Translations under genes and position numbers: made by a program
Notes under the pieces: model-generated
Seen by the model: the letters and a program-made list of their open reading frames with translations, nothing else
Told to the model about the DNA's origin: nothing
The model's database searches: none
In this document: piece by piece, positions 3,863 through 63,004 of the stretch
How positions within the stretch are numbered: position 1 is the first letter of the stretch
How the letters are laid out: each line of letters begins with the position of its first letter
Assembly (NCBI RefSeq): GCF_000317575.1
Contig: NC_019748.1
Location: 1,814,001 to 1,878,000 of the forward strand
Length of the DNA: 64,000 nt
DNA from: Stanieria cyanosphaera PCC 7437
GTDB taxonomy: Bacteria > Cyanobacteriota > Cyanobacteriia > Cyanobacteriales > Xenococcaceae
Direction of reading: 5' to 3'

Positions 3863-4004
3863 TACTTTATTATTTGCTAAATGTCTAATCAGGATCGAAT
3901 TATAAATTATTTTCAATACAAATTCAATTTTTTTTTAGTTCAAATAGAAAGTAAAATTATCATGACAGGATTCACATTTTCAGCAAAGTTATGTTCTCCT
4001 CCTC

Positions 4005-4041
4005 AAAAAAAAATTAACCCTAACTAAATTAGTCAGGGTTT
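4005..4041 (-). terminator. Rho-independent terminator downstream of cbiX
   Basis: Read on the minus strand, a hairpin with arms AACCCTGACTAA and TTAGTTAGGGTT (one mismatch) is followed directly by a run of about nine T. It lies about 170 nt past the cbiX stop codon in the right orientation for cbiX transcripts. Confidence 0.7.
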
Positions 4042-4164
4042 TAAGTTTCAAATTTTTCATTCTTTAAGATTTGCTTAAAGCTTAGAACGTACTAGTAAAA
4101 AAGAGTCCCCAAATACTACCAGTTACTCCCACAGCAATTAAAATATTACTGAAAAATCGTCCTA

Positions 4165-4215
4165 CTGACGTGTCGCCGACACATCTCTACTGGTAAGTGG
4201 TCACCGGTAACTGAA
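4165..4215. repeat. Dispersed short palindromic repeat (degenerate copy)
   Basis: The segment contains GTGTCGCCGACAC (self-complementary), then ATCTCTACTGGTAA and GGTCACCGGTAACTG. The CTCTACTGGTAACTG piece recurs at 18245-18260, 19655-19665 and near 35340, so this is one member of a small dispersed family. The rest of the 3863-4216 gap holds the cbiX terminator. It also holds a short minus-strand hydrophobic reading frame (about 4080-4160) without a start codon, which is not called. Confidence 0.5.
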
Positions 4216-4216
4216 T

Positions 4217-5218
4217 TTAAGGTGTGTTCCAAATGCGCTGGTGATAATCTTCTAACTTGGCGTAGGGATCGTTGTTCCCATGATGGTGATGGTGTCCATA
4301 ATCATGGTGATGATGGTGTTCATGCCCATGTCCATGATCTTTGTCTGTAACAGCGAGGCGAAATTTGCACATTTCACAATTCATGGCAACTTGACCTAAC
4401 TGCGCTTCAATTTCTCGCTCTCTAACTATTTGTAGCAATTGGGAAGCAATACCCATTTCTGGTAAACAAGTAAAATCTAGATCGGGATATTGTTCTTGCT
4501 GTTGAGCGGTAAAATTAAAGATTTTTTCGACTAAAGTACCTGTAAATAAGAAATAGGGCAAGACTATCACTCGTTTTGGTTGATACAAATAAGCCCGACG
4601 GAAACCTTCTTCTAAACGAGGATGAGTAATACCAATAAAACAAGTTTCTACTGTTTTGTAACCACTACCTTCCCAGATAATTCGAGCTATTTTGCAAACA
4701 TCTCCGTTAGCATCAGGATCACTTGAACCTCGACCAACAAATAAAAGTACTGTATCAGCACGGGATATATTTCGGGGGTTGTGTTTTGGTTCATCTAATG
4801 CTGCTAAACGATCGCGCCATAGTTCTATAATTTTTGGAGTAATGCCAAAGTGACGACCATAATTAAAGCTTAACTGAGGATAAAGCGATCGCGCGCGATC
4901 CAATTCGTTAGTGACATCAAATTTGTTATGTCTAGCAGCAAATAATAAAATTGGCAAAGCAGTAATTTCGTTATAACCTCGTTCCAGACAAGTTTCTACT
5001 CCCTGTTGAATAGTTGGTTCGGTTAGTTCTAAAAAACAGGGAATAACTGGACGGGAAAGGTCTAATTTTTGATAAGTTTCAACAAAGTCGAGGAAGGTTT
5101 GTCTTCCTTGTTCGTTTCTAGTACCATGACCAATTGCCAGTAAAGGTTTTGCCTGTGGTAGAGGCGCTAATTGAAGTGAGTTAAAAAGTGATTTGGGCAA
5201 TGAATTAGAAATAACCAT
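4217..5218 (-). CDS. cbiX: Sirohydrochlorin cobaltochelatase, long form with MxCxxC and His-rich tail
   Basis: CbiX inserts Co(II) into sirohydrochlorin, the first committed step of anaerobic cobalamin synthesis. Two tandem chelatase halves are visible: one starting [17 protein letters not shown] (about residue 26) and one starting [17 protein letters not shown] (about 158). They are followed by MNCEMCKFR, a match to the MxCxxC motif of long CbiX proteins that carry an Fe-S centre, and then a tail with about 20 His ([17 protein letters not shown]) that probably binds metal. I chose the ATG at 5218, preceded by GCGAGGTACAG, over the in-frame TTG at 5245. The cobalamin riboswitch upstream supports cobalt rather than iron chelation. 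A SirB (ferrochelatase) role in siroheme synthesis cannot be excluded. Confidence 0.9.
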
Positions 5219-5292
5219 CTGTACCTCGCAGATCTGTTGTTGCAATGAAGTTAGTTGCTAGTTATCACGTGACACGAAAAAACTGATAACTG

Positions 5293-5420
5293 TTGCTCGG
5301 CGGGCATTCTGACTAAGAGATCTGTTGATAATCTCATCACAGTTGCGGGACAGCGTTGGACTTACACCAAACTTTCCCCATTACTTCTAATGACTGTTCC
5401 CATTAGAACCGATGATTTGT
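5293..5420 (-). promoter_or_regulatory. Cobalamin (B12) riboswitch in the cbiX leader
   Basis: On the minus strand the element reads through GGGAAAGTTTGGTGTAAG, TCCAACGCTGTCCCGCAAC and TGTGATGAG, then AGTCAGAATGCCCGCC. These are the conserved core blocks of the cobalamin riboswitch (GGGAA, GGTG-AA-TCC, GC-G-CCCGCaACTGT, and the B12 box normally AGCCAGGAGACCTGCC). A stem with arms TTCTAATGGG and TTAGAAGTAAT lies at its 5' side. It ends about 75 nt before the cbiX start, so adenosylcobalamin should repress cbiX, probably at translation or by termination. Confidence 0.93.
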
Positions 5421-5761
5421 AATCATAACCTAAATCCGAACGCTAGAAATCAGGAATAAGGTTTAAATTTACAGTCGTTTTCGATTGGATTGATCTTTTC
5501 TGCTTGATTAGCAATAATTTTGGCTGCTGAAAGAACTATAGAAAATTATCCTTTCTCACATCTCGAATCCGAAGTTAATATTAAAGCTCTAGGGCGGTCG
5601 CGTTTTCTCAACTTAATCTGGTTTGTATCCTGCCATTTGCTTATTGGACTTGGAGATCGCGGTTGAGAATAAACAATCAATCTCTCAATACTTTTATTTT
5701 TTTTACTTGTCAGAATCAATGATAATAAAAACAAGTGTTGCATAGATAACTCAACTCTTCG
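5421..5761. other. Intergenic region between the cbiX riboswitch and the rluE-like gene
   Basis: This divergent gap must hold the cbiX promoter (minus) and the promoter of the plus-strand pseudouridine synthase. A 65-codon minus-strand frame at 5546-5743 has no recognisable features and is not called. Nothing else was seen. Confidence 0.4.
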
Positions 5762-6370
5762 ATGGATCGCTATATTTTGTTTTACAAACCCTATGGAGTA
5801 CTATGTCAATTTACTGACAATAGTAACGATACAAATAAGCGTAGTACTCTTAAAGATTTTATTGCTGTTCCTTCCGTTTATCCTGTAGGCAGATTGGATT
5901 TAGATAGCGAAGGATTACTATTACTAACTAATAACGGAAAATTACAACATCGTCTTGCTCATCGTCAATTCGCCCATCCCCGTACTTATTTAGTTCAAGT
6001 TGAAAAAATTCCTGATCAATCTGCACTTGATCGCCTGAGAAAAGGTATTAAGATCGAAGATTATTATACTCGTCAGGCCCAAGTTCAAAAGCTAACAGCA
6101 GAACCTAATTTACCACCCAGAAATCCACCCATTCGCTATCGTAAAACAGTTCCTACTTGCTGGTTATCAATCACTCTTACCGAAGGAAGAAACAGACAAG
6201 TGAGAAAAATGACAGCAGCAATCGGTTTTCCGACTTTGAGATTAGTCAGAGTTGCGATCGCTATTACCAAAGATAAACAACTATCCCTCGAAGGTTTAAA
6301 ACTAGGAGATTGGCGAGATTTAACTACCTCAGAAATTAGCTCTTTAAAAAATTTAATGCGATCAAATTAG
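5762..6370 (+). CDS. 23S rRNA pseudouridine synthase, RluE/RsuA family
   Basis: The 202-residue enzyme isomerises uridine to pseudouridine in rRNA. The opening [14 protein letters not shown] and the catalytic block [18 protein letters not shown] (catalytic Asp within GRLD, about residue 43) are diagnostic of the RsuA/RluB/E/F group. The later [13 protein letters not shown] matches motif III. There is no N-terminal S4 RNA-binding domain and the length is close to E. coli RluE (about 217), so RluE-type is the best fit. The exact target uridine is inferred from the family only. Confidence 0.9.
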
Positions 6371-6526
6371 TTAATAGTTTAATGTTTTCTATTTCCCTAT
6401 CTCCCCTTCTCCCTTTCCCTTCAACACAATCAAGATCAATCAGACTTATGCCAGAGGTATATTCGATGTTGGAGACGATAGACTGAACTTACACAGATTC
6501 TTATCTAACCCTAGGATAAACAAGGC

Positions 6527-8437
6527 ATGATACGCTTAAAACCTTGGCAGTGGGTAGTTTTAGCAACTCCGATCGCATCTATTGTTATTTTCTTTTTAAT
6601 CGCAGCAGGATGGCAAATTAATCATTGGGGAATTAACTGGATTTGGGCAATTTTTACCTTAATTTTGGTTGCTTGGCGTTGGTTATTAGTGAAATGGACT
6701 AATCCTGCGATCGCACAAATTGAAGCAGTCATGACGGAAGTAAATCAGGAGTTAGAATCAACTGTAGCAACTCCCGTTACTTTGTCTACAGGCGAAGAAA
6801 CCAGTCAACAAGTAGAAACTGTCTTACAAAATATTTTACAAACAGCTAGCAATGATGCACCCATCTGGGAAGATTGGAATACTTTTTGGCAAAGATGTCA
6901 AAATCTAGTCATCAATATCGCTCATATTTATCATCCTGAAGTTAAGTATCCCTTACTCAATATCTATATTCCCCAAGCTTATGGTTTAATTCGAGGGACA
7001 GTAGACGATCTCGATCTGTGGATGCAAAAATTATCTCCTGTCTTGAATCAAGTTACCGTCGGACAAGCTTATCAAGCTTATGAAGTTTATCAAAAATTAG
7101 AGCCATCTGCTCGTAAATTATGGCAAGCTTGGAATTGGATGCAGTGGTTGATTAATCCTGCTGTAGCTTTAGCTAGACAAGCAAGTCAACGTTCAAGCGA
7201 TCGCGCTACTCAACAATTACTGATCAATTTAGGTCAATCTCTTCGTGAAGTCGCCTTAAGAAACCTATGCAGACAGACAGTTACACTTTATAGTGGTACA
7301 AATTTACCTGAAAGTTTTGCGCCTAGTATCCCTTCTTTACCCAAAGCCAAAACTCAAACTCTACAAAATATCTTACAACAGGCTGAACCAACAGAAATAG
7401 TCGCACAAAAACCAGTTAATATACTTTTAGTGGGTAGAACTGGTGCAGGAAAAAGTAGCTTAATCAATACTCTGTTTCAATCAGAATTAGCAGAAGTTGA
7501 TGTCTTACCTAGTACCGATCAAATCAAAAATTACCATTGGCAAGCAAGCACTGGGGAAAGTTTAACCCTTTGGGATACCCCAGGTTATGAACAAATTAAT
7601 CGAAGTGATTTTCGCGAACAAGTCTTAGATTATGCCGTAAATGCCGATTTGTTATTATTAGTTACTCCTGCCCTCGATCCTGCCTTGCAAATGGATTTAG
7701 ATTTCCTCAAAGACATCAAAGCAGAAGTCGAAAACTTACCCACATTTACCATTGTCACTCAAGTTGATCGCCTGCGTCCAATTCGTGAATGGAATCCTCC
7801 CTATAATTGGCAAGAAGGAGAATTACCCAAAGAAAAAAACATCCGCGAAGCAGTTATCTATCGCAATGAACTTTTAGGCGAATTTTGTGATTTAGTTTTA
7901 CCAGTAGTAACTAGCGATCCGCAAACTAATCGCAAAGCTTGGGGAATAGATGCCTTATCCTTCAATTTACTTGACGTACTTTCTCCTGCCAAACAACTTC
8001 GTCTTGCCCGTTTTTTAAGAGATTTAGAAACCCGTAGTGTTGCTGCTGCAAAAATTATTGACCACTATACTTTTCAAATGGCAACTACTCAAGGATTAAC
8101 TACTCTATTAAAAACCCCAGTCTTACAATTTATATCTACTTTATCCACAGGTTCACCTACCTTAGCCTATATCCTCGCCGAACAAATTCCTGTCGAACAA
8201 TTACCTGTTGTAATTGGAAAATTACAAATGGCTTACGATTTATTTAATTTATTAAATACTAGTAATAATCCCCTTGATTTCGATCTGCTTTCTCTGTGGC
8301 CAATCTTATTAGAAAATCCTAACCCACCAGAACGTAATGCTTGGGCATTTGGTCATGCTTTAGTTGAATATTGGACTCAAGATTTAAGCTTAGAACAATT
8401 AAGCGAAAGATTTGAATATTACTTTAATAAGAGATAA
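6527..8437 (+). CDS. Membrane-associated Era/YcjX-like GTPase
   Basis: The 636-residue protein starts with two transmembrane helices (about residues 9-28 and 33-52), then a long helical region, then a TRAFAC-class G domain. Walker A is GRTGAGKSSLIN at about residue 303, the switch/G3 motif is LWDTPGYEQ at about 348, and the specificity loop is TQVDRL at about 410. A C-terminal helical domain of about 150 residues follows. Conserved cyanobacterial proteins of this layout are annotated as 50S-ribosome-binding-type GTPases, but the role is not known. It stands alone between short gaps. Confidence 0.8.
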   Translation: MIRLKPWQWVVLATPIASIVIFFLIAAGWQINHWGINWIWAIFTLILVAWRWLLVKWTNPAIAQIEAVMTEVNQELESTVATPVTLSTGEETSQQVETVLQNILQTASNDAPIWEDWNTFWQRCQNLVINIAHIYHPEVKYPLLNIYIPQAYGLIRGTVDDLDLWMQKLSPVLNQVTVGQAYQAYEVYQKLEPSARKLWQAWNWMQWLINPAVALARQASQRSSDRATQQLLINLGQSLREVALRNLCRQTVTLYSGTNLPESFAPSIPSLPKAKTQTLQNILQQAEPTEIVAQKPVNILLVGRTGAGKSSLINTLFQSELAEVDVLPSTDQIKNYHWQASTGESLTLWDTPGYEQINRSDFREQVLDYAVNADLLLLVTPALDPALQMDLDFLKDIKAEVENLPTFTIVTQVDRLRPIREWNPPYNWQEGELPKEKNIREAVIYRNELLGEFCDLVLPVVTSDPQTNRKAWGIDALSFNLLDVLSPAKQLRLARFLRDLETRSVAAAKIIDHYTFQMATTQGLTTLLKTPVLQFISTLSTGSPTLAYILAEQIPVEQLPVVIGKLQMAYDLFNLLNTSNNPLDFDLLSLWPILLENPNPPERNAWAFGHALVEYWTQDLSLEQLSERFEYYFNKR

Positions 8438-51112: not shown

Positions 51113-51391
51113 CTTTTTGTTCTAATCTAAAAAGCGAATCATCTCAGTCACTTTTATGTGTTTACTGTCATGTTGGAGTGGCGATCGATGTTTTAAACTA
51201 AGCTTTCTAAAAGCTACACGAGCATGATTATACTTCTGCACGGGTTATGGTAACGCTTGCCAGACAAGTGTTATAAAAGCTGTAACTGAACTTCGATCTC
51301 CATTTTCAGGCTGAAGAAATGCTTAAACAGCTTCTTGAATAGTCATCCTAATGAAGGCTGTTCCCTTTTTAACGACAGAGGGGCGTTATTC

Positions 51392-51781
51392 ATGTCTAGA
51401 AAATCAATTTTATTGATCGAACATGAAGCCAGCATCGGAGAAGTTTTGCGTACCTGCCTCAGTGAGTTCGGCGGCTGGAGAGTCATTCTATCGAACTCGA
51501 TTCAAGAGGGAGTCGATCTGTGTATGGCGACTCGCCCTGATGTCATCTTGCTAGATACTTCTATTTCAGAAATAGATGCTCTGATATTTATCGAACAACT
51601 GAAACAACATTCAATGGATAGAGCTATCCCAATTTTACTGATTACTGCCAGAGCCAGTTGGTTTACCTTAAAGCAACTTCACCAAATGGGATTTGCTGGA
51701 GCGATCGCCAAACCTTTTAATCCCTCAACTCTATCCACTCAAATTTCTCACTTGCTGGGATGGAGTGAGAAAGAGTTTTAG
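51392..51781 (+). CDS. Divergent response-regulator receiver domain protein
   Basis: Starting at the ATG at 51392 (MSRKSILLIEH) gives 129 residues; an in-frame ATG at 51335 would add 19 residues without receiver character. The fold is a receiver with phospho-Asp in DVILLDTSISEIDAL, Thr in ILLITARASW and Lys in AIAKPFNPSTLS. The first acidic pair is changed (IEHEASIGEVL: His-Glu in place of Asp-Asp), so Mg binding and phosphorylation may be weakened. Likely derived from the neighbouring CheY-like gene; the GW/LGW C-termini are alike. Confidence 0.85.
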   Translation: MSRKSILLIEHEASIGEVLRTCLSEFGGWRVILSNSIQEGVDLCMATRPDVILLDTSISEIDALIFIEQLKQHSMDRAIPILLITARASWFTLKQLHQMGFAGAIAKPFNPSTLSTQISHLLGWSEKEF

Positions 51782-51855
51782 CCAGCCTATTTCAAATCTG
51801 ATTAGCTCGAACCAGTCAAGAAGGATTACAAATCAAGATTAACTAGGAGAAAAAT

Positions 51856-52350
51856 ATGTCAACTTTAACCGTCTGGAAATTCAATACTACTGATGGGGCA
51901 GATAATGCATTGAGCAAACTAGAAACCCTGCAAAAACAGCAGTTGATTCAAGTTCTAGATGCAGCCATCGTATCTTGGCCGCGGGGACGAAAACGGCCTA
52001 AAACTTACCAGGCGATGAATACTGTGGGAGCGGGTGCCCTAGGAGGAGCTTTTTGGGGAATGTTGTTTGGTCTGCTCTTTTTTGGGCCATTATTAGGGAT
52101 AATAGTGGGTGCGACAGCAGGTGCGCTTTCAGGTAAGTTTACTGACTATGGGATTAATGACAATTTTATCAAAGAGTTGCAAAGCAAAGTCACAGAAGGA
52201 ACTTCTGCCTTATTTTTATTGACGGGGCAAGTCACGATAGACAAGGTTGAAGCAGCTTTCGCACCCGATGAAAAAGGCGAATTGATTCAATCGAATCTAT
52301 CTATTGAGCAAGAAGCCAGGCTGCGGGAAGACTTTGGCGCAGAGGTATAG
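51856..52350 (+). CDS. DUF1269 membrane stress protein
   Basis: The 164-residue protein starts at an ATG with AGGAGAAAA 5-8 nt upstream. Family features are STLTVWKFNTTDGADNAL, then WPRGRKRPKTYQA, and a glycine-rich hydrophobic hairpin (about 55-98; GALGGAFWGMLFGLLFFGPL, then LGIIVGATAGAL). DUF1269 proteins are often linked to acid or general stress in bacteria, but the mechanism is not known. It sits 74 nt after the divergent receiver gene and probably shares its promoter at site 3. Confidence 0.85.
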   Translation: MSTLTVWKFNTTDGADNALSKLETLQKQQLIQVLDAAIVSWPRGRKRPKTYQAMNTVGAGALGGAFWGMLFGLLFFGPLLGIIVGATAGALSGKFTDYGINDNFIKELQSKVTEGTSALFLLTGQVTIDKVEAAFAPDEKGELIQSNLSIEQEARLREDFGAEV

Positions 52351-52413
52351 AGCTAGGTAATAGGTAATGAGTAATGAATGAAAAGTTATAAGTTATGAAT
52401 TCTAAATTTTTAA

Positions 52414-52492
52414 CTCAACGCTCAGCACGACTAAACGAGGGGCTGTGTCGTCCCCTTACCTTGTAAGCCCCTTGTCGAGAGTAAACGTTGAG
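52414..52492. repeat. Nested inverted repeat between DUF1269 and arcA
   Basis: CTCAACG (52414-52420) pairs with CGTTGAG (52486-52492), and inside GGGGCT pairs with AGCCCC. It may terminate the DUF1269 transcript or be a palindromic element. The remaining 52351-52669 gap holds short TAATGAGTAATGAAT repeats. Confidence 0.5.
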
Positions 52493-52669
52493 CTTGCTCA
52501 AAATTCAAAATTTTTTGTTACCTGCTCCCTACTACCTCTATTCTGATTCCTGGCTTTAGTATTTACCTTCGGTGATGGTTTCGTTTTATCTGTGGCTGCG
52601 CTCGCTCTTAGATCTGACCCTTATGCGCTCGTAAAAGGTCGAATCTGCAATCTAATCGGAGGAGTTATT

Positions 52670-53935
52670 ATGACTGTCGTTAAAGATCGAAGTTCCATTT
52701 CTTATGGAGTCCACTCAGAAGTGGGCAAGCTGCGAAAAGTAATGGTGTGTTCGCCAGGCTTGGCACATGCCCGTTTGACCCCCACCAACTGCGACGATCT
52801 GCTGTTTGACGATGTGCTGTGGGTAGAGCGAGCCAAGCAGGATCATTTAGACTTCATGGCAAAGATGCGCGATCGCGGTATTGAAGTCGTCGAAATGCAC
52901 GAACTGCTGGCCCAAACTCTTAATATTTCAGAAGCAAAAAAATGGATTTTAGACCAACAGATCGTACCCAATGAAGTCGGACTGGGTCTAATTGAGGACG
53001 TTCGAGCCTTTTTAGAAAGCTTGATTTCTACACAATTAGCTGAATATCTCATCGGTGGACTTGCCGCTTACGATATCCCCAAAGATTTTGGTGGGGACTT
53101 TCTCCGGGCAGCTCAAGAAGCAAGTGGTATTACCGGCTATTTACTACCGCCCTTGCCCAATACCTTGTACACTCGCGATACTACCTGCTGGCTTTATGGC
53201 GGTGTTACCCTCAATCCACTCTACTGGCCCGCTCGCCACGAAGAAACCGTCCTTACAACAGCAATTTACAAATTTCACCCCAGCTTTGCCCAAGCAAACT
53301 TCCAAATTTGGTGGGGCGATCCAGAAGTCAACCACGGTTCGGCGACCCTCGAAGGTGGGGATGTCATGCCTATCGGTAACGGCATTGTCCTGATTGGCAT
53401 GAGCGAACGCACCTCGCGCCAAGCAATTACCCAACTGGCAGCAGCTTTATTTAGTAAGGGAGGTGCCCAACGGGTAATTGTCGCTGGGATGCCTAAACTT
53501 CGGTCGGCGATGCACCTCGATACGGTATTTACCTTTTGCGACCGCGATGTCGTCACCTTGTTTCCCGAGATTATGGATCGAGTCGCAACCTTTTCTCTCT
53601 GGCCGAGCGACAAACCTCCTGGGTACGAATTGACTAAAGAGTCTCAGCCATTTGTCGATGTGGTAGCTGCATCCCTGAGTCTGAAAAAGCTGCGGGTTGT
53701 AGAGACTGGGGGCAACACCTATGCCAGACAGCGTCAGCAGTGGGATAGCGGCAACAACGTTGTCTGCTTGGAACCAGGTGTAGTTTTCGCCTACGATCGC
53801 AATACTCATACCAATAACGCGATACGCGAAGAAGGGATAGAAGTTATCCCCATCGTGGGCAGTGAATTGGGACGCGGACGGGGTGGCGGTCATTGCATGA
53901 CCTGTCCGTTGATTCGGGATGCAGTTGATTTCTAA
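52670..53935 (+). CDS. arcA: Arginine deiminase, proteobacterial type
   Basis: Arginine deiminase converts L-arginine to citrulline and ammonia. Starting at the ATG at 52670 (GGAGGAGTTATT just before) gives 421 residues. The protein tracks Pseudomonas-type ArcA along its length: [97 protein letters not shown] and the catalytic end [18 protein letters not shown] with the nucleophile Cys. It is not the cyanobacterial arginine dihydrolase (ArgZ/AgrE). No carbamate kinase, ornithine carbamoyltransferase or arginine/ornithine antiporter gene is present nearby. Transfer is likely. Confidence 0.94.
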
Positions 53936-54010
53936 GAAGATGGTTGAGTGGCATTCAATTTATTAAATGCTGAAACAGCAGATATTTTAGCAATTGGAGG
54001 AACACTTATT

Positions 54011-54832
54011 ATGGGTACTGAACAAAAAAGGGGTGCTCTAGTCATTATTGGCGGAGCAGAAGATAGAGAAGGCGAGCTTCTAGTCTTGCGAGAATTTATC
54101 CGAACGGCTGGTGGCGTGAAAGCTCGAATCGCGGTAATGACTGCCGCTACTGGTTATCCCAGAGAAGTAGGAGACGAATACACCGACATTTTTGAGCGAT
54201 TAGGAGCAGAGTCAGTGGAGGTAATTCATACCGAACACCGCGACGATTCCGAACGAGAAGACTCTCTCCGCATCGTTAAGGAGGCAACAGGCATCTTCTT
54301 TACCGGAGGTGACCAAATGCGCATTGTAAACTTCATCAAAGGAACGTCTTTAGATAAGGTTATTCACAATCGTTATGAGGAAGGAGCCGTAATTGGCGGC
54401 ACCAGTGCTGGGGCTGCCATGATGCCCGATCAAATGATTTTGGGAGGGACATCCGTGGCCAATCCCAGTGTTGATGCGGTTAGTATAGGTCCTGGTATGG
54501 GGTTTTTACCAGGTATCCTCGTGGATCAGCATTTTGCTCAACGAGGTCGCCTCGGTCGCCTGCTGGCAGCCCTGGTGCTGGAACCTGCCGTACTAGGTTT
54601 AGGCATTGATGAAGACACGGCTATCATTATCAACGGCGATGAATTTGAAGTAGTAGGAAGGGGTGCCGTTACCGTCGTTGATGAAACGACCTCTACCCAC
54701 AACAACCTGGAAGGATTGCTCAAAGATGAACCCATTGCCCTTTGTGGGGTGCAGTTGCATATTTTACCCCACGGCTATCGGTTTAACCTGAAGACGCACC
54801 TACCACGGTTTGTTGAAAAAGGTAAGGGTTAA
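54011..54832 (+). CDS. cphB: Cyanophycinase
   Basis: Cyanophycinase is a serine exopeptidase that releases beta-Asp-Arg dipeptides from cyanophycin. The start at 54011, preceded by GGAGGAACACTT, gives 273 residues, the usual length; an in-frame GTG at 53948 is less likely. Key segments are GALVIIGGAEDREGE, TGGDQMRIVNF, the nucleophile elbow GGTSAGAAMMPDQM, VDQHFAQRGRLGRLLAAL and LGLGIDEDTAIII. It lies 75 nt after arcA on the same strand. Its last 55 nt are copied at 56535. Confidence 0.93.
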   Translation: MGTEQKRGALVIIGGAEDREGELLVLREFIRTAGGVKARIAVMTAATGYPREVGDEYTDIFERLGAESVEVIHTEHRDDSEREDSLRIVKEATGIFFTGGDQMRIVNFIKGTSLDKVIHNRYEEGAVIGGTSAGAAMMPDQMILGGTSVANPSVDAVSIGPGMGFLPGILVDQHFAQRGRLGRLLAALVLEPAVLGLGIDEDTAIIINGDEFEVVGRGAVTVVDETTSTHNNLEGLLKDEPIALCGVQLHILPHGYRFNLKTHLPRFVEKGKG

Positions 54833-54959
54833 AGATGACGACTTTAAATTAATTCGCAAAAGACAGTTTACACTGGCGATCAAATCCAGGGGTATCTGTC
54901 GTCAGTCAATTAGATATTAACGACCTCGAACCTGGCAAAAAGCACCGCTTTTTCTGCCA
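54778..54959 (+). repeat. Left copy of 182-bp direct repeat flanking the ClC gene (with dead hydrolase start)
   Basis: This copy covers the cphB 3' end plus a broken start of the downstream hydrolase gene (54834-54959). Aligned by eye with 56535-56716 it shows about 18 differences, including two 1-nt indels. The first indel turns the hydrolase start ATG-ACG-ACT into a frame that stops after five codons. Homology ends sharply near 54959. Confidence 0.88.
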
Positions 54960-55027
54960 AATTTTCGCTCAATATACATTTGAACTGATAACGCTCACCC
55001 CACAACCACTCTTCGTACAAAAACGCC

Positions 55028-56440
55028 ATGGCAAACGACAAGCTACTATCTCTGTTGACCAGCGTGGGCGGATGGACTATTGGCGGTCTGCTCGGAGGTT
55101 TAGTCGGCTCCTTGGCTGCGGTTCTGCTGACCGAGTCGATCAAGCGAAGCCTCGATGCCGTTTCCAGACTAGACACCGTCTGGCTGCTGCTGCTGCCATT
55201 GCTCGGTGTTACGCTAGCTGTGCTGGTGTTGCATGGACTAGGCAAGGGTAAAGCCGTGCAGGTATTGGTTTCCCCTAAAGCCGCTCTCCCTCTGCGCCGA
55301 CTTCCACCGCCCACATGGTACTCCTTCCCCCACGACGTTATGCGCCGACTTCCACCGCCTACATGGTACTCCTTCCCCCACGACGTTGCCCGGGCCGATC
55401 TCTCCGCCGACGTGGTGGCCACGGCCGGAGCAGAAGAACGCTTCCCCTGGAATCTGGCACCATTGCGTGCCCTTGCCATCTTATCCACTGTTGGGCTTGG
55501 TGCGACTATGGGAACAGAATCTCCAGCAGCCCATATCGGTGTTGCGACGGGGGTCTGGTTGGGTAGCACAAATCCAGCGCTGCGCCGACTGGTGCGGCCT
55601 ATGGCAGTAGGTGGTGGTGCTGCGGGTGTGGCTGCCTTGATGGGGATACCGCTGGTGGGCAGCTTCTTCATGTTTGAACTGAGTCAGCGACGAAAGGTTC
55701 CGATCGCCCCTAAGCGAGTGGCTGCGATGTTAGCGGGCGGACTGGTGGGATGGGGAGTCAACGTAGCCTTCAGGCTCGATCTGATCCGGCTCGTCGTGCC
55801 GAAGGTTTCCCCCGCTGACTTCTGGGATGGGGTGGCTGCTGCTCTGTTCATCGGAGCGCTCGCGGGCGCGATTACGGCGCTCACTGGTGAGGCCATCTAC
55901 TGGGCTCGAGGTTTACCGACCAAGCCAGTCATTCGTCTCCTGATTGGTGGCATGGTTATGCTATCTCTGGCGATGGTGATAGGACTGATTGCCACCCCAA
56001 CAGCGGCCTTTGGTCCTGGGGGAGCCGCCATCATCTGGGCCGAAACCGTCCAAACTAGCCCTTACCAACTACTGGCTGTGGCTCTGCTTCGGGCGGCATC
56101 GACCACTGCTGCCGTTGTAGCCGGGGGCTGTGGTGGCGTGTTTGTACCTTTTCTAGCGATCGGCGACCTGAGTGGCCGAGTGTTTGCGACAGCATTTGGG
56201 ATTCCGGCAGATCTGGCGGGTGCCGCTGGAGCAGCAGCTGGCATTACTGGTGGCTATCGGCTACCGTTCACAGCTGTAGCAATGGTGCTAGGGATCGGTG
56301 GCCCAAGTACAGCCAAGCTAACCTGCCTCGCCACAGTTGTGGTCGCCGCCCTCTCTGGATTGGTGACTACACGGGCAGTTAATACACTGTCCAGTTCCCT
56401 GTTCACCACGCTCCGTCGGAAGAGATCGTCAGCAGACTAA
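55028..56440 (+). CDS. ClC family chloride channel/antiporter
   Basis: The 470-residue membrane protein has about ten hydrophobic helices. The motif GTESPAAHIG (Glu near residue 162) matches the GxEGP gate, and GGVFVPFLAIGD matches the GxFxP motif of ClC proteins. Retention of the gating Glu leaves open H+/Cl- exchange. The classical GSGIP selectivity motif is not visible where expected; that stretch holds a 16-residue in-frame duplication. GC content and codon use are clearly higher than in neighbours. No strong RBS precedes the ATG. With its flanks it appears inserted between cphB and the hydrolase gene. Confidence 0.78.
   Translation: MANDKLLSLLTSVGGWTIGGLLGGLVGSLAAVLLTESIKRSLDAVSRLDTVWLLLLPLLGVTLAVLVLHGLGKGKAVQVLVSPKAALPLRRLPPPTWYSFPHDVMRRLPPPTWYSFPHDVARADLSADVVATAGAEERFPWNLAPLRALAILSTVGLGATMGTESPAAHIGVATGVWLGSTNPALRRLVRPMAVGGGAAGVAALMGIPLVGSFFMFELSQRRKVPIAPKRVAAMLAGGLVGWGVNVAFRLDLIRLVVPKVSPADFWDGVAAALFIGALAGAITALTGEAIYWARGLPTKPVIRLLIGGMVMLSLAMVIGLIATPTAAFGPGGAAIIWAETVQTSPYQLLAVALLRAASTTAAVVAGGCGGVFVPFLAIGDLSGRVFATAFGIPADLAGAAGAAAGITGGYRLPFTAVAMVLGIGGPSTAKLTCLATVVVAALSGLVTTRAVNTLSSSLFTTLRRKRSSAD
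55293..55388 (+). repeat. 48-bp in-frame tandem duplication inside the ClC gene
   Basis: Two adjacent 48-nt copies (55293-55340 and 55341-55388) differ at one base. Each encodes the 16 residues RRLPPPTWYSFPHDV plus one. The near-identity indicates a recent slippage or duplication event. Confidence 0.93.
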
Positions 56441-56534
56441 AACTGGATCGAGGACGTTCAATACCTGTAGCGACCCAGAATGTGCGATTCGTTTCTAGGT
56501 GAATAAATAGCCTAGAGTGTCGGTCAAACATAAA

Positions 56535-56716
56535 TCGGTTTAACCTGAAAACTCACTTACCACGGTTTGTTGAAAGAGGCAAAAGTGAAAAATGACGACT
56601 CTAATTAATTCGCAGAAGACAGTTTACACTGGCGATCAAATCCAGGGGGTATCTGTCATCAGTCAGTTAGATATCAACGACCTCGAACCAGGCAAAAAGC
56701 ACCGCTTTTTCTTCCA
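56535..56716 (+). repeat. Right copy of 182-bp direct repeat flanking the ClC gene
   Basis: The first 55 nt are a leftover of a cyanophycinase 3' end (NLKTHLPRFVERGK in frame, no gene body). The rest is the true start of the hydrolase gene at 56592. The homology with 54778-54959 begins abruptly at TCGGTTTAACC. Confidence 0.88.
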
Positions 56717-57647
56717 GGGGGTGCAAATGGGTACCGGTCAGCACTGGTATGTTCCCGTCGTTGTTGCCAAAGGCATTCGTGACGGTAAGCGGATCTCCCT
56801 GACTGCTGGGGTACACGGCGATGAATTAAGCCCAGTGAATGCAGTGCAGCGAATCATGGCAAATCTCGATCCGACAAAAATGTCGGGTACGGCGATCGCT
56901 GTATTTGACCTCTCTCGTCCGGCCAAGGAATACACGCAGCGCAAGTGGCCTGTTGCACAAAAAGGCGGTTCCTTAATCGACCTCAATCGCGTGTGGCCGG
57001 GCAACGAAATGGGCGACGATACGCCGACACGTCATGCTGGCATTCTCTGGAATCGACTGTTTAAACATAACGTCGATGTTGCCCTTGACTATCACACGGC
57101 TTCGACTGGTGGCGATTTTACGATGTTCATCTTCGCCGACTTTCGTAAGTCGGAAATCCGAAAAATTGCCGAGCTGTTTCCATGCGAACAGATCAAGAAC
57201 GATTTGGGCGAAAGCGGTTCCCTCGAAATGGCGTTCGTCGAGGCGGGCATCTCGGTTATAACTATCGAGATCGGCGGTCCCCGTATCTTCGATCAACCGA
57301 AGATCGCGATGGTCGTCGAAGGCAGCACGAACGTCCTCAAGCACTATAAAGTGATTGACGGTTCTATGGGTCGCACGTCCCAGGAAGCTGGAACCTTCTT
57401 CGGCGATGCTTTTGAGACCATCCGTTCGACGACTGGCGGTTATCTCGAGTTGCTTGTCGATCTTAGAGACAAAGTTACACCAGGTCAGAAAATCGCCCTC
57501 CAGCGCAACTCTTTCGGCGATGTCGTCGCCGAGTATACAGCTAGCGTGGCAGGGGAAGTCGCAACGATCGCTCGCGATGCTCTCTGCGAACCTGGCTCGC
57601 GGATAATGCAGATTTTGTACGACAGCGCGAACTCGATAAATCAGTAA
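56592..57647 (+). CDS. Succinylglutamate desuccinylase/aspartoacylase family hydrolase
   Basis: The 351-residue protein belongs to the M14-like zinc hydrolases. Zn ligands are in AGVHGDELSPVNAV (His, Glu) and the downstream VDVALDYHTAS (His); DLNRVWPGN is the substrate-arginine loop and ITIEIGG carries the likely catalytic Glu. A C-terminal beta domain (about 275-345) is typical. Family members cleave N-acyl or amide bonds of amino acids. With arcA and cphB alongside, a role on aspartyl/arginyl compounds from cyanophycin is possible, but this is inference. It was originally adjacent to cphB, as the flanking repeat shows. Confidence 0.85.
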   Translation: MTTLINSQKTVYTGDQIQGVSVISQLDINDLEPGKKHRFFFQGVQMGTGQHWYVPVVVAKGIRDGKRISLTAGVHGDELSPVNAVQRIMANLDPTKMSGTAIAVFDLSRPAKEYTQRKWPVAQKGGSLIDLNRVWPGNEMGDDTPTRHAGILWNRLFKHNVDVALDYHTASTGGDFTMFIFADFRKSEIRKIAELFPCEQIKNDLGESGSLEMAFVEAGISVITIEIGGPRIFDQPKIAMVVEGSTNVLKHYKVIDGSMGRTSQEAGTFFGDAFETIRSTTGGYLELLVDLRDKVTPGQKIALQRNSFGDVVAEYTASVAGEVATIARDALCEPGSRIMQILYDSANSINQ

Positions 57648-57755
57648 TCAAGAGTATTTGATCTAGAAAACGTAGGGCTTACAAGCACTTGATTAAACCC
57701 TAAATGCTTGTAATATCAAGTTCGGTTGAATAATTATATTAAAGTTGAGGTCAGA

Positions 57756-57849
57756 TATAGCAGTTCTCATACTGGTGAGGTACAAAGTATTTGGATTTAA
57801 GGCAGGAGGCAGGTGTTAAGTGTACCTCGTGGATTCGAGAAACGCTATA
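57756..57849. mobile_element. 94-bp MITE-like element
   Basis: The ends are inverted: TATAG, then GTTCTC, then GAGGTACA at the left, against TGTACCTC, then GAGAA, then CTATA at the right. TA dinucleotides border it, recalling IS630/Tc1-type elements that target TA. No ORF is present. A half copy is at 30467-30502. Confidence 0.65.
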
Positions 57850-57852
57850 ACA

Positions 57853-57885
57853 AGTAATTAGTAATTAGTAATTAGTAATTAGTAA
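57853..57885. repeat. Short tandem heptamer repeat (AGTAATT)n
   Basis: Four tandem units of the same heptamer seen at 18178. It directly follows the MITE-like element. The surrounding 57648-58570 stretch (over 900 nt) otherwise holds relics and a 64-codon ORF at 57942-58136 that I could not recognise. Confidence 0.8.
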
Positions 57886-58120
57886 ATGCAACCAGGCTTT
57901 TTTATTTCAACCAATTATTCGTACTTGATATAAGCCCCCTCATGAACATAAAGGACAAAAAAACAAAGTTATCACTGACAACAATCGATCCGATCAGTTT
58001 TTCCCAGAAGAGAGAAACAAAAATCTCTCCATCGAAATTCCTGCCGAACAATCTCCCAGATTTACTGAGAAAATTCTTTCTGGATACTAGCCGATGGGAG
58101 AAATCCAGCTTCGCAGTCGA

Positions 58121-58333
58121 ATGTTTAGAGGCTTAGCTGGTGGAAGAATGCCTTGGTGAGTTCTCATTTCAGGCTGGAGCTTGTTTGGCGGTATTTTTTG
58201 GCTGCTGCGTGTCGCAGTCAACTGATCATCGGTTATGGCGTGGATTTATGTAGCGATCGCAGGAATTCCACTCTTCATTTTGTGGAAAGGGATAAAAGCT
58301 AAGCTTTCAAGCAAAAGACGCAGGAGGCTATAG
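58121..58333 (+). pseudogene. Small membrane protein gene interrupted by two TGA codons
   Basis: One frame reads MFRGLAGGRMPW-stop-VLI, ISGWSLFGGIFWLLRVAVN, stop, SSV, MAWIYVAIAGIPLFILWKG, then a Lys/Arg-rich end and TAG. The two hydrophobic segments and the basic tail make a coherent 70-residue two-helix protein apart from the two TGA stops. The last 32 codons (from 58235) could be translated alone. No homologue is recognised. Confidence 0.4.
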
Positions 58334-58443
58334 CAAACAATTGCTTATTTGTCGTCATACCCAGTCCCTTTAATGAATGACTAACGAAAATTCCCCCTCT
58401 CGAGACGACAAGCCAGATTGAATGGGATTAGATAGAGAAGTCT

Positions 58444-58462
58444 TTTCATATCAGTTTCATAT
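58444..58462 (+). promoter_or_regulatory. Direct-repeat regulatory site 4 (island motif)
   Basis: TTTCATAT-CAG-TTTCATAT, followed by TTTTTTGTTTTACGCTAAAG. It is 108 nt upstream of the aldo-keto reductase start remnant and thus of the SDR-HdeD-glucosidase row. The left flank (GATTGAATGGGATTAGATAG) resembles the sequence before site 3, so the two sites share more than the core. Confidence 0.78.
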
Positions 58463-58570
58463 TTTTTTGTTTTACGCTAAAGAACAATATTTCAAGCAAG
58501 AATGTCTGCGTTAGCTATTTTAGCTGCTTAAGATATGGGTAAAGACAATAAAAATATTTAATTATTTCTT

Positions 58571-58627
58571 ATGCAATACACTCAACTTGGAAAAACAACT
58601 CTCAATGTTTCAAAAGTTTGTTTGGCA
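58571..58627 (+). pseudogene. Aldo-keto reductase 5' remnant
   Basis: The ATG at 58571 opens MQYTQLGKTTLNVSKVCL, matching the typical aldo-keto reductase start (M-x-Y-x-x-L-G-x-T-x-L-x-V-S-x-x-C-L-G). The frame is then joined to SDR sequence and stops after 27 codons. The rest of the gene is deleted. Confidence 0.65.
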
Positions 58628-58634
58628 AAACACC

Positions 58635-59418
58635 ATGAGAAATTTGAAAGGTAAAAATGGATTGATTACCGGAGCGAGTTCTGGGATTGGACAGGCGATC
58701 GCCATCCGTCTTGCTCGAGAAGGTTGTAATATTGCGATTAGCTACCGCAAAAATGCTGAAGAAGCAAAACGCACCGAAGAAATCGTACTGCAATATGCTC
58801 GTGAATCGGGTAAAGCAAGTAATGTGCAGACTCTCATCGTACAGGGAGATGCTGCGAAAGAAGAAGACATTAAATTTGGCAGCCTGGATATTCTGATTAA
58901 CAGTGCCAGAATTCAACTAGAATCGCCCTCCCACGAAATTACAACCGATAAATTCGATCAAGTCATCGCCGTAAATCTCCGAGGTGCTTATCTTTATGCG
59001 CGAGAAACCATCAAGCATAATGTTGGCACAAAAGCGTTTCGGTGTAATTATCAATATTTCCAGCGTTCACGAAATCATTCCTCGCCCGATGTATCTCAGC
59101 TACTCTATCAGCAAAGGAGGAATGGGCAATTTGACTAAAACTCTAGCGTTGGAATATGCCAATCGAGGAATTAGAGTCAATGGGATCGGCCTCGGAGTCA
59201 CCATCACCCCCATCAGTGAAAACTGGACAGAGGAGCTAGAGAAAAAGGCGCTGGTTGAAAGTCATATTCCAATGGGGCGAGCAGGAACTTCTGAGGAAAT
59301 GGCGATGGCGGTTGCTTTTTTAGTATCTGACGAAGCTGCCTACATCACCGGACAAACCCTGTTCATCGATGGAGGGCTGACCCTCTATGCTGACTTCCGA
59401 GAAGCATGGTCGGCATAG
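58635..59418 (+). pseudogene. Frameshifted short-chain dehydrogenase (glucose 1-dehydrogenase-like)
   Basis: Two overlapping frames together make one SDR. Frame 1 (from ATG 58635) has the cofactor motif GLITGASSGIGQAIAIRLA and DILINSARIQLES, where the expected NNAG is changed to NSAR. About ten residues are missing before KFGSLD. A frameshift near 59015-59025 then moves to frame 2 (ends 59418), which holds GVIINISSVHE, the catalytic YLSYSISKGG, and the C-terminal ITGQTLFIDGGLTLY. With a frameshift, an internal deletion and an altered NAG motif, the gene is very likely dead. Confidence 0.85.
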
Positions 59419-59464
59419 GATGTACAAATCAAATACAAGATAAATCCTTGTCGGAGCAACTATT

Positions 59465-60028
59465 ATGAGTACTGAAATGTTTAATCGGGAAATAAACCGA
59501 GGTTTGGGCTGGTTGGTCGCCCTAGGCGTCTTGATGATTTTGCTGGGCATTGCTGTAATTGTAGAACCCTTCATTGCAACAATCGCCGTCGCCCGTATCC
59601 TTTCCTGGACTCTTTTATTTGCTGGTATTGTCCGAACGGTTCATGCTCTTCAGTCCCGCCAACAACGAGGCTTTTGGTTAAAGCTATTAGTAGGAATTTT
59701 CTACGTAATTGCCGGTATTTTGTTACTTAGCAACGTCTTTGGGGCTGCTCTCACCCTTACCCTAGCCTTTGGAGGGGTCATCCTAGCTCAGGGCATTCTT
59801 GAAGTGATTGCAGCATTCAAAGTTCGACCAGAACTCAACTGGGGTTGGATGCTGTTGAGCGGCATCATCGCGATTATTTTAGGAATTTTTATTTTGTACC
59901 AGTGGCCCTTTAATGCCATCTGGTTAATAGGACTTTTTACGGGGATTAGTTTCATCTTGTCAGGAATTTGGATGATTGTCTTTCCCTTGGCAATTCTTAG
60001 CCATTTATCAAGAACGACATTGCCCTGA
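59465..60028 (+). CDS. HdeD family acid-resistance membrane protein
   Basis: The 187-residue protein has about six transmembrane helices in three hairpins (about 17-37, 42-62, 73-93, 97-116, 127-147 and 153-178), with the duplicated G-W-x-L/M-L-x-G-I pattern (GLGWLVALGVLMILLGIAVI; GWMLLSGIIAIILGIFILY) of DUF308/HdeD proteins. In E. coli HdeD is in the acid fitness island. TCGGAG precedes the ATG. It is 48 nt upstream of the glucosidase gene. An N-terminal fragment of a second copy is at 42009. Confidence 0.88.
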   Translation: MSTEMFNREINRGLGWLVALGVLMILLGIAVIVEPFIATIAVARILSWTLLFAGIVRTVHALQSRQQRGFWLKLLVGIFYVIAGILLLSNVFGAALTLTLAFGGVILAQGILEVIAAFKVRPELNWGWMLLSGIIAIILGIFILYQWPFNAIWLIGLFTGISFILSGIWMIVFPLAILSHLSRTTLP

Positions 60029-60076
60029 AATCCCCAAACACATCAGCCAAATTAACTAATATTGCAGGAGACATCT

Positions 60077-62836
60077 ATGACTGCGGAAGAACGACGGCTC
60101 GAACAAAACCGCACTGGCAAAGTCAATTGGTATAAATGGGGACCCTATCTGAGTGAGCGGCAGTGGGGCACGGTGCGCGAAGATTACAGTTCTGATGGGA
60201 ATGCCTGGAATTATTTCCCCCACGACCACGCGCGATCGCGAGCATATCGCTGGGGAGAAGACGGACTAGGCGGTATCACTGACGACCACAACCTGCTCTG
60301 CTTTGCGCTGGCACTATGGAATGGCAAAGATCCCATCCTCAAAGAACGGTTGTTCGGATTGACCAATGGTGAAGGCAACCACGGTGAGGATGTCAAAGAG
60401 TACTACTTCTACCTCGATAGTACGCCTACCCACTCCTACATGAAGTACCTCTACAAATACCCCCAAAAAGAGTTTCCTTATATCGATCTGGTCGAAACTA
60501 ATCGCAACCGTAACCGTTATGAACTGGAATACGAGCTGTTAGATACGGGCATTTTTGATGACGATCGCTACTTTGATGTGTTTGTAGAATACGCCAAAGC
60601 AGATGCCGAAGATATTTTGATTAAAATTAACATTGCCAACCGAGGACCCGAAGCGGCTCCGATTGATGTATTACCCACTCTTTGGTTTCGCAATACTTGG
60701 TCTTGGTCAGACAGTGGCTCTAAACCTGTACTAACAAAATTTGAGGGCACTGGAAATAGCGTTATTCAAGCCCAAATTACGAATGACTTACTGAGACAGT
60801 ATGTGAGTGAATATTACTTTTATTGTGATGGGGTCGTTCCGCTCTTGTTCGCGGAAAATGAAACCAACAATGAAAGGTTGTTTGGTTCTTCTAATTCCAC
60901 TCCCTATGTGAAAGACAGCATTAACAATTACATCGTGGACGGACAGAAGAATGCCATTAATCCTTATAATGTTGGCACAAAAGTTACGCCCCATTACCAA
61001 CTTACAGTTGGATCTGGAGAAACTAAGACGATTCGATTGCGCTTGAGCAAACAGTCTCCGACTCAGTTAGAAGAGCCATTTGGTCAATTCGAGCAAATAT
61101 TTGCGACTCGTCTTCAGGAAGCGGATGAGTTTTATGAGACAGTGATTCCACCATCTGTTCTGGTAGATAATGATCGCACCAACGTCATGCGACAAGCCCT
61201 AGCTGGGATGATGTGGACGAAACAATACTTTTACTACGACTTGGATCTATGGCTGAGGGAGCGTGGCGTTACTCCTTGGACAATGACAGACCAGAAGAGG
61301 CACGTGCGAAACAGCGATTGGTTTCATATGCATAACGACGATATCGTTTCCATGCCGGACAAGTGGGAATATCCCTGGTACGCTGCCTGGGATCTAGCAT
61401 TCCATGTAATTCCCATTAGCCTGATCGATCCAGACTTTGCCAAAAAGCAACTGATGTTGATGTTGCAGGAAGATTACATCCATCCAAATGGTCAAATTCC
61501 TGCCTATGAATGGAATTTTGGCGATGTCAATCCGCCCGTACATGCTTGGGCTACCTGGGAAATTTATACCCGCGATCGCGCAGCGCCTCGCTGGGAGCGA
61601 GATCGCGAACGCAACAAGGGAGTTGGCGATATTGATTTCCTCAAATACGCCTTTTCTAAATTGCTGATCAACTTTACTTGGTGGGTCAACCGCAAAGATG
61701 AAGGCGGCAATAATTTGTTTCAAGGTGGCTTCCTGGGACTGGATAACATTGGTGTATTTGATCGCAGTTCTTCTTTGCCAACTGGAGGACATTTAGAACA
61801 GGCGGATGGTACCGCCTGGATGGTTTTCTTCAGTGAGCAGATGTTCCAGATTGCGATCGAGTTGGCAATTCACGATTCCCTCTACGAAGACTTTGCCATT
61901 AAGTTCTTTGAACATACCATGTGGATTGCCGGAGCGATGGATCGCATTGGCGAACAACATGACGAACTGTGGGACGAAGAGGATGGCTTTTTCTATGATG
62001 TATTGCGCTTACCAGATGGCAATTCCACTCGCTTAAAGGTGCGATCATTGGTGGGCTTGTTATCCCTGATGGCAGTGGCTGTCTTCCCCCGCGAAGCCTT
62101 CGACAAGCTGCCGCGCCTGAAGGAAGTGGCGCAAGAGTTCATTCAAAGGCATCCCGAACTGGCTCATAATGTTCACCTACCAATTCAGCCTGGACTCCGA
62201 GGACGGCTGATGCTGTCTATCTTGAACGAACAGAAGTTGCGCCGTATTCTACAAAGAATGCTAGATGAATCTGAGTTTCTCAGCGATTATGGCATTCGTT
62301 CTCTCTCGCGCTATCACCTCGACCATCCTTACTTTTTCTATCATGCAGGGCAGGAGTACAAAGTGGGATACGTTCCAGGTGATTCAACCTCAGGGATGTT
62401 TGGTGGCAATTCAAACTGGCGCGGTCCGATTTGGATGCCAATGAATATTTTGCTGTTAAAAGGGCTGCTGCAATTCTATAGCTACTATGGTGATGATTTT
62501 ACCGTGGAATATCCAACGGGGTCTGGCAAATATCTGACGCTGTATGAAATTGCCAATTGTATTAGCGAACGCATTGTCAGCATTTTTCTGAAGGATGAAT
62601 CTGGTCGTCGTCCATTATATGGCGGTGCTGAGAAGTTCCAGACCGACCCTCACTGGCGCGGTCTGATTCTGTTCTATGAATATTTCAACGGCGATAACGG
62701 GGCAGGAATTGGTGCTTCTCACCAAACCGGATGGACGGGTTGCGTCGCCCGAATCATCCAGGCTCTAGGCTACTTTACTCCAGAAATGATTTTAGATACT
62801 ATTACACCCGGAGAACTGGCAAAGTACCGAGTTTAG
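60077..62836 (+). CDS. GH63/MGH1-type glucosidase
   Basis: Starting at the ATG at 60077 (AGGAG 7 nt before) gives 919 residues; the in-frame TTG at 60062 is less likely. The N-terminal half is beta-sandwich-like (NWYKWGPYLSERQWGTVRED; YSSDGNAWNYFPHDHARSRA). The C-terminal half is an (alpha/alpha)6 barrel with WYAAWDLAFHVIPISLIDPD, IPAYEWNFGDVNPPVHAWAT and GGNSNWRGPIWMPMNILLLK. It matches large bacterial glucosidases of the GH63/mannosyl- or glucosylglycerate hydrolase clan. The substrate, possibly an alpha-glucoside or compatible solute, is inferred. No signal peptide. A 48-residue piece of a paralogue lies at 41774-41918. Confidence 0.85.
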   Translation: MTAEERRLEQNRTGKVNWYKWGPYLSERQWGTVREDYSSDGNAWNYFPHDHARSRAYRWGEDGLGGITDDHNLLCFALALWNGKDPILKERLFGLTNGEGNHGEDVKEYYFYLDSTPTHSYMKYLYKYPQKEFPYIDLVETNRNRNRYELEYELLDTGIFDDDRYFDVFVEYAKADAEDILIKINIANRGPEAAPIDVLPTLWFRNTWSWSDSGSKPVLTKFEGTGNSVIQAQITNDLLRQYVSEYYFYCDGVVPLLFAENETNNERLFGSSNSTPYVKDSINNYIVDGQKNAINPYNVGTKVTPHYQLTVGSGETKTIRLRLSKQSPTQLEEPFGQFEQIFATRLQEADEFYETVIPPSVLVDNDRTNVMRQALAGMMWTKQYFYYDLDLWLRERGVTPWTMTDQKRHVRNSDWFHMHNDDIVSMPDKWEYPWYAAWDLAFHVIPISLIDPDFAKKQLMLMLQEDYIHPNGQIPAYEWNFGDVNPPVHAWATWEIYTRDRAAPRWERDRERNKGVGDIDFLKYAFSKLLINFTWWVNRKDEGGNNLFQGGFLGLDNIGVFDRSSSLPTGGHLEQADGTAWMVFFSEQMFQIAIELAIHDSLYEDFAIKFFEHTMWIAGAMDRIGEQHDELWDEEDGFFYDVLRLPDGNSTRLKVRSLVGLLSLMAVAVFPREAFDKLPRLKEVAQEFIQRHPELAHNVHLPIQPGLRGRLMLSILNEQKLRRILQRMLDESEFLSDYGIRSLSRYHLDHPYFFYHAGQEYKVGYVPGDSTSGMFGGNSNWRGPIWMPMNILLLKGLLQFYSYYGDDFTVEYPTGSGKYLTLYEIANCISERIVSIFLKDESGRRPLYGGAEKFQTDPHWRGLILFYEYFNGDNGAGIGASHQTGWTGCVARIIQALGYFTPEMILDTITPGELAKYRV

Positions 62837-63004
62837 TAGCAAACAGTAGAGAAGAGGGTAGGAGGCACTGCATGAGGTGTCTCCTAATTTTTAATGCCAT
62901 TGATTCCTAAAGTCTACAATAATTATCTAGCTCCGCATTGAAATCCTTAATGAGCAGTACAATTTCAACCCTCGATTTGATACTTTCAATCAGCAATAAC
63001 AATA

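Follow-up and report, generated by a model that had tools for sequence, protein, structure and literature searches.

MMBIR-like template switching in Escherichia coli under starvation, as described in PMC3161906, places an insertion at novel joints and, when the switch leads back to an already replicated region, duplicates that region, which is the outcome seen at the locus presented here; the events in that account are of kilobase size with visible microhomology, whereas here the duplication is 182 bp long and age has made the joints unreadable. A circularised fragment that integrates by a single crossover likewise leaves an insert inside direct repeats of its target, each truncated inwardly, and circularised linear DNA integrating by a single crossing-over has been reported in E. 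coli (PMC3240628); our locus differs in that no circle or homologous donor was found. The transformation-induced tandem duplications and merodiploidy described for Streptococcus pneumoniae in PMC3784515 are of another size, the duplications there being ~100-900 kb. As regards gene content, in the descriptions consulted of known cyanophycin-degradation clusters with AstE/AspA-type dipeptide hydrolases, the cyanophycin genes have as their neighbour one annotated as succinylglutamate desuccinylase/aspartoacylase, a setting like that of the hydrolase at our locus. No paper on this locus was among the matches listed in our literature searches.

The window (the whole stretch analysed, 64,000 nucleotides) covers positions 1,814,001-1,878,000 of the 5,041,209-bp chromosome of Stanieria cyanosphaera PCC 7437, which has a genome of 5.54 Mb in six contigs. 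The genes follow each other in the order arcA, cphB, a dead 125-bp hydrolase stub, a ClC gene, a group II intron remnant, a headless cphB tail and the hydrolase (Table 1). The cphB product clears the TIGR02069 equivalog cut-off for cyanophycinase (311.7 bits against 126.6), and the hydrolase carries the catalytic domain PF24827 (80.2 bits, cut-off 25). The four PDB matches of the latter are other AstE/AspA proteins, all distant, and we name the intact enzyme a candidate cyanophycin-dipeptide (beta-Asp-Arg) hydrolase from its gene context, a cphB relative lying upstream in 8 of 16 named loci. The ClC product belongs to the Voltage_CLC family (PF00654, 101.6 bits against a gathering cut-off of 24.8) and falls outside the equivalog for the H+/Cl- exchanger ClcA (PRK05277, 29.1 bits against 350); by sequence, its closest solved structures are 1kpl and a fluoride CLC, the four ClC sequences from the PDB all being distant. 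Neither the promoter scan (1 against 3.4 in shuffles) nor the terminator scan (4 against 4.0) gave an excess, and the Rfam matches in 54700-56800, at E 0.6-6.2, were taken as chance. Elsewhere in the window there is a cobalamin riboswitch (RF00174, 5282-5428, minus strand), and downstream of the hydrolase a tandem run of TAATTAG units (57853-57884), with the stretch ~57714-57930 having no counterpart in the sister species.

Table 1. Features of the interrupted cphB-hydrolase locus, in window positions.
Feature	Position	Strand	Evidence
arcA, arginine deiminase	52670..53935	+	TIGR01078 498.2 bits (cut-off 489.1); PF02274 E 5.9e-134
cphB, cyanophycinase, intact	54011..54832	+	TIGR02069 E 3.4e-93
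cphB-hydrolase junction, left copy	54778..54959	+	repeat search, BLAST
Dead hydrolase stub	54835..54959	+	window: 1-base frameshift, stop at codon 6; sister: TAA at codon 12
Left flank of insert, 68 bp	54960..55027	.	sister 97% identical
ClC-family gene, 470 aa	55028..56440	+	PF00654 E 6.8e-29
48-bp tandem duplication within ClC	55293..55388	+	sister without it; sits in mosaic patch
Group II intron 5' exon (TGTAGCGACCCAGAAT)	56466..56481	+	conserved upstream of other copies
Group II intron, first 52 nt, cut at right junction	56482..56533	+	shared 5' end with other copies
cphB-hydrolase junction, right copy (headless cphB tail and hydrolase 5' end)	56535..56716	+	repeat search, BLAST
AstE/AspA-type hydrolase, intact	56592..57647	+	PF24827 E 1.9e-22

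The sequence spanning the cphB end and the hydrolase start is present twice. When the left copy was searched by BLAST against the rest of the window, the two aligned over 183 columns at 90.16% identity (16 mismatches, 2 gaps, 242 bits, E 7.8e-67), which bears out the "about 18 differences" counted by eye in the sequence-only reading of this DNA, and they fall into three in-register repeat blocks (54777-54959 against 56534-56716, spacing 1756-1757). The next best place for the left copy in the window reaches 24.7 bits and the maximum over 50 mononucleotide shuffles of the window is 32.8 bits; chance similarity is ruled out by these scores, and the two segments are homologous beyond doubt. The duplication, the 1.57-kb insert and the decay of the stub can be read directly. 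The left copy holds the end of the intact cphB and a hydrolase stub that in the window runs ATG ACG ACT TTA AAT TAA, and the right copy holds a headless cphB tail and the start of the intact hydrolase; the dead start and the headless tail had both been pointed out earlier and are indeed there. In both species the headless tail reads LPRFVERGKSEK up to a stop that overlaps the hydrolase ATG (ATGA). This overlap has been lost at the window's intact cphB and is kept behind a 6-bp deletion at the sister's; the old joint is best kept in the copy that still stands ahead of a working hydrolase. The direct repeats, the cargo between them and the truncated genes on the inside together form the anatomy of a Campbell-type integrant. 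A transposon with a target-site duplication, which would show terminal inverted repeats and a short target duplication, was rejected, since no inverted repeat of at least 10 bp links the two ends of the insert and the duplication measures 182 bp. Such a length far exceeds that of usual target duplications.

Relatives of the hydrolase had to be taken from other searches, since at E <= 1e-80 it was found in only 1 of 386 phylum genomes (an even draw from a larger group), namely its own. Among the eight named loci with cphB upstream, the uninterrupted arrangement is directly observed: the gap is ~9-35 bp in five, ~0.14 kb in L109, ~0.4 kb in L110 and ~1.1 kb in L107, where two cphB genes stand in a row (the gaps for L108 and L110 rest on cphB ends extended by two codons). 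None of the 16 loci holds a ClC gene. Of the eight loci without cphB, L112 starts within the hydrolase itself, upstream sequence in L098 amounts to 1.25 kb, and L099, L100, L101, L103, L104 and L106 have 1.75-6 kb with no cphB. The closest hydrolase-bearing relative outside the genus, G011 from the same family, has two stand-alone copies (L101 and L104) and no cphB, so for the old joint of Stanieria the deduction draws on what is left of it in the genus and on relatives further away.

The ClC gene has its relatives elsewhere. Close ones (E <= 1e-50) are present in 10 of the 386 phylum genomes, that is, its own and nine of one other family (f8), at 73-78% identity; the sister species also carries the gene. 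When the Stanieria and the nine f8 ClC loci are compared, DNA similarity ends within ~7 bp of the gene start and at or before the gene end, and arcA, cphB and the hydrolase are all absent near ClC in the five of the nine f8 loci with wide flanks. The 68-bp left flank of the insert has no match in any fetched locus of other genomes. Of nine genomes selected because they have the hydrolase, five carry a ClC gene that is 75-83% identical, as does plasmid pA of Kovacikia, chosen for ClC. This plasmid was the only one of 72,556 plasmid records to match ClC; its hydrolase lies ~57 kb away and no cphB is present in the 8-kb flanks. The presence of ClC in those five genomes could be taken to mean that the gene was ancestral at this place and was lost by the relatives. 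We regard this as hardly credible: in all five, ClC is on contigs other than that of the hydrolase (in draft assemblies), no hydrolase locus among the 16 has it, and the truncated stub and tail reveal an interruption. The empty arrangement in several relatives, the insert in the sister and the ClC relatives elsewhere support, as had been proposed, ClC being a late arrival inside what would formerly have been a cphB-hydrolase operon. The ClC phylogeny called for by the sequence-only reading was built as an unrooted tree, in which the Stanieria pair falls between two groups and no donor is named. In a locus of a cyanobacterial metagenome-assembled genome outside the genus (L164), the same arcA and ClC are ~2 kb apart on opposite strands, on a contig with other window-related genes; arcA, a gene read by eye as aspartate ammonia-lyase, and ClC are found there within 5 kb (3542-8161).

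The sister species (G001) has the same gene arrangement, insert included. Its left junction is observed at the same base, followed by 68 bp of near-identical DNA (Table 1), and since insert and left joint are common to both species, the insertion predates their split; the hydrolase stub has been killed by different lesions in the two. The sister's right copy begins later, behind an extra stretch of ~0.1 kb which hides the right edge, so that sharing is demonstrated for the left joint only. This extra stretch (L033, 9804-9900) lies within the intron remnant and contains the palindrome GCGAATCGCGATTCGC, read as MITE-like. With the copies labelled w (window) or s (sister) and L (left) or R (right), their identities are 165/181 for wL-wR, 152/164 for wR-sR, 158/176 for wR-sL, 136/158 for sL-sR, 139/163 for wL-sR and 148/175 for wL-sL. 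This star-like pattern may mean either that the insertion took place shortly before the split or that some homogenisation occurred later in the window genome. The grouping of wL with wR has 73% bootstrap support, and of the two-against-two sites, two put left with left, three window with window and one favours the third pairing; with the sites thus divided, the topology by itself decides nothing, and it is the shared joint that does. The synteny with the sister extends over a block of 11.5 kb (window 51357-62867). On either side of it, a stretch of ~20.8 kb of the sister's DNA upstream (L155 with the beginning of L033) and one of 1 kb downstream have no match in the window at E 1e-20, which may mean that the whole block moved together.

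Whether the junction copies are native bears on the proposal that a circular piece carrying both this junction and ClC was integrated by a single crossover, a Campbell event. In its favour, such an integration classically yields direct repeats in which the outer gene at each end is complete and the inner one truncated. Among the four copies, the 125-bp hydrolase heads show pairwise identities of 0.82-0.94, the best outgroup (Phormidesmis, L097) reaching 0.79-0.83, and no copy is as close to any of 15 outgroup sequences as it is to the other three. Over the cphB end and spacer, the four copies can be aligned with one another but not with the four cphB-bearing outgroups, and the overlap of the cphB end with the hydrolase start, kept in three of the four copies, is found in none of these outgroups. 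In the tree of the hydrolase head, the four copies are separated from the outgroups with 43% bootstrap support, and no single site divides all four from all outgroups. Since the copies are mutually closest, the duplication is probably native, weak as the tree support is. The mutual closeness of the copies and the shared overlap speak against a circle that brought the junction from a distant species, the tree of the short head being weak; near kin could still have donated the junction. What is left for a Campbell event is thus mainly a circle from near kin or derived from the genome itself, and this circle must beforehand have held both odd joints, i.e. hydrolase to ClC flank and intron to cphB tail, with the crossover still to come. 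No circular donor with ClC and the junction segment was seen in the 72,556 plasmid records, an absence which is weak evidence. Taken together, we consider integration by a single crossover unlikely.

A truncated group II intron at the right edge of the insert is a new finding here. From 56466 the insert reads TGTAGCGACCCAGAAT followed directly by GTGCGATTCGTTTCTAGG, which is a 5' exon and then the beginning of the intron, broken off where the right repeat starts. Group II introns have the 5' end consensus GTGYG, and this end is common to the window remnant and to the copies that precede a reverse transcriptase ORF. A 34-bp pattern from the intron 5' end, searched in 100 genomes, was found in 11, among them the own genome and that of the sister, the reversed control giving 0. 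Of 17 intron places, the two scanned were picked for their long downstream ORFs; in each of them RVT_N and RVT_1 are encoded ~0.5 kb downstream. An intron copy on plasmid C2 of the own genome has the domain V (RF00029) ~0.36 kb downstream on the same strand; the Rfam scan found no domain V in the window, where the copy is a 5' fragment only, and none was found around the copies L150-L152 or near the G011 copy. Several other copies end at contig edges or are themselves truncated, and those in L134, L143 and the window (56482-56533) are reduced to their 5' end (~36-60 nt), a loss of the 3' part that is not the outcome expected of incomplete reverse transcription.

That an intron 5' end with its 5' exon marks the right edge could suggest that ClC was brought here by a mobile group II intron or by some other transposable element, the repeats being a target-site duplication. 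We hold this to be very improbable: the upstream DNA is still joined to the intron 5' end, the insert ends are linked by no inverted repeat of at least 10 bp, and the repeats are unlike the outcome of group II homing and far longer than usual target duplications. Group II intron homing is not known to produce target duplications of the 182-bp repeat kind. Either the captured fragment ended within the intron, or a later deletion removed the rest of it along with part of a longer right copy. The latter would fit a larger tandem duplication of the cphB-hydrolase region that came first, ClC and the intron later replacing or deleting its interior and leaving the 182-bp edges: a later deletion could cut the intron at the start of the right repeat, and one relative, L107, has two successive cphB genes. 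More events are required, however, and beside the repeat no further cphB or hydrolase similarity was detected at the threshold used (repeats of at least 20 bp). This route therefore seems to us on the improbable side, while far from negligible.

The account we favour, with about an even chance of being right, is that the common ancestor of both species captured the ClC fragment illegitimately and that the joint was duplicated locally in the process. The arcA-cphB-hydrolase operon of this ancestor would have been broken at the cphB/hydrolase overlap, and the break filled by an illegitimately captured 1.57-kb fragment that carried ClC and ended on the right in the first part of a group II intron. 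The joining, by repair or replication, would have used flanks with a 182-bp overlap (by template switch or a filled-in staggered break), and it is this overlap that would have duplicated the junction on both sides. One-step capture is preferred because the two new joints, hydrolase to ClC flank and intron to cphB tail, suffice for it, with no circle and no extra recombination step. This ranking is one of parsimony, not proof, as one-step capture, tandem duplication with replacement and a single crossover all lead to the same anatomy, and microhomology at the joints is unreadable after this much divergence. The latter two were the mechanisms put forward by the sequence-only reading; both fit the anatomy, and neither is established. 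We infer the one-step joining as well as the origin of ClC in another cyanobacterium; a donor molecule in which ClC adjoins this intron was not found.

The insert had also been described as a GC-rich block of 1.6 kb with only the ClC gene. ClC is the sole ORF between the copies that was matched to a family, an overlapping antisense ORF (54910-55671) and an 83-aa ORF also being listed among the ORFs of at least 80 aa, and its GC content is 0.60. The GC-richness of the insert is partly due to amino-acid composition: the fourfold-degenerate GC of ClC is 0.55, against 0.56 for arcA and 0.59 for the hydrolase, and because it is close to that of the neighbours, ClC was rejected as a GC outlier at the codon level. 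Genes within the window's first 38 kb have values of 0.14-0.38; over 38962-62833 the value climbs to 0.40-0.59, as in an acquired island.

Between window and sister, dN/dS by NG86 is 0.058 for arcA, 0.064 for cphB, 0.106 for the hydrolase and 0.243 for ClC (0.388 by YN00), and dS is 0.22 for ClC and 0.32-0.42 for its neighbours. The genome-wide Ks between the two species is given as 0.2828 in PMC7381351. ClC is under looser constraint than its neighbours, yet it is open in both species. Part of the difference stems from a mosaic patch at about 55,200-55,390, where the identity between window and sister falls to 0.64 over one 120-column step (gaps excluded). In this patch the window sequence is nearest to L162, L164 and L165 (0.77-0.79), a Phormidesmis-like type, and that of the sister to the f8 and L163 types (0.75-0.82, with f8_L120 as an exception at 0.59), being mostly of the f8 type. 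This suggests an exchange between ClC alleles of different cyanobacteria.

The insertion is real and well preserved, and looks like an ordinary, old accident of repair or recombination. E. coli ClC proteins act in arginine-dependent acid resistance. By analogy, the insertion might have been kept since ClC provides arginine catabolism (arginine deiminase together with cyanophycin breakdown) with an anion or charge partner, a reading drawn from the proximity of ClC to arcA in L164 (~2 kb) and from ClC staying open in both Stanieria (dN/dS ~0.24-0.39), which we consider doubtful. The biological significance beyond the splicing itself is modest. The locus is nevertheless a clear example, older than the species split, of an unrelated gene spliced into a working operon, in which one can still read the two edges, the doubled joint, the decaying stub and, in relatives, the arrangement without the insert. 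Judging by this example, an insertion with a target duplication of well over 100 bp on its flanks would require no transposon.
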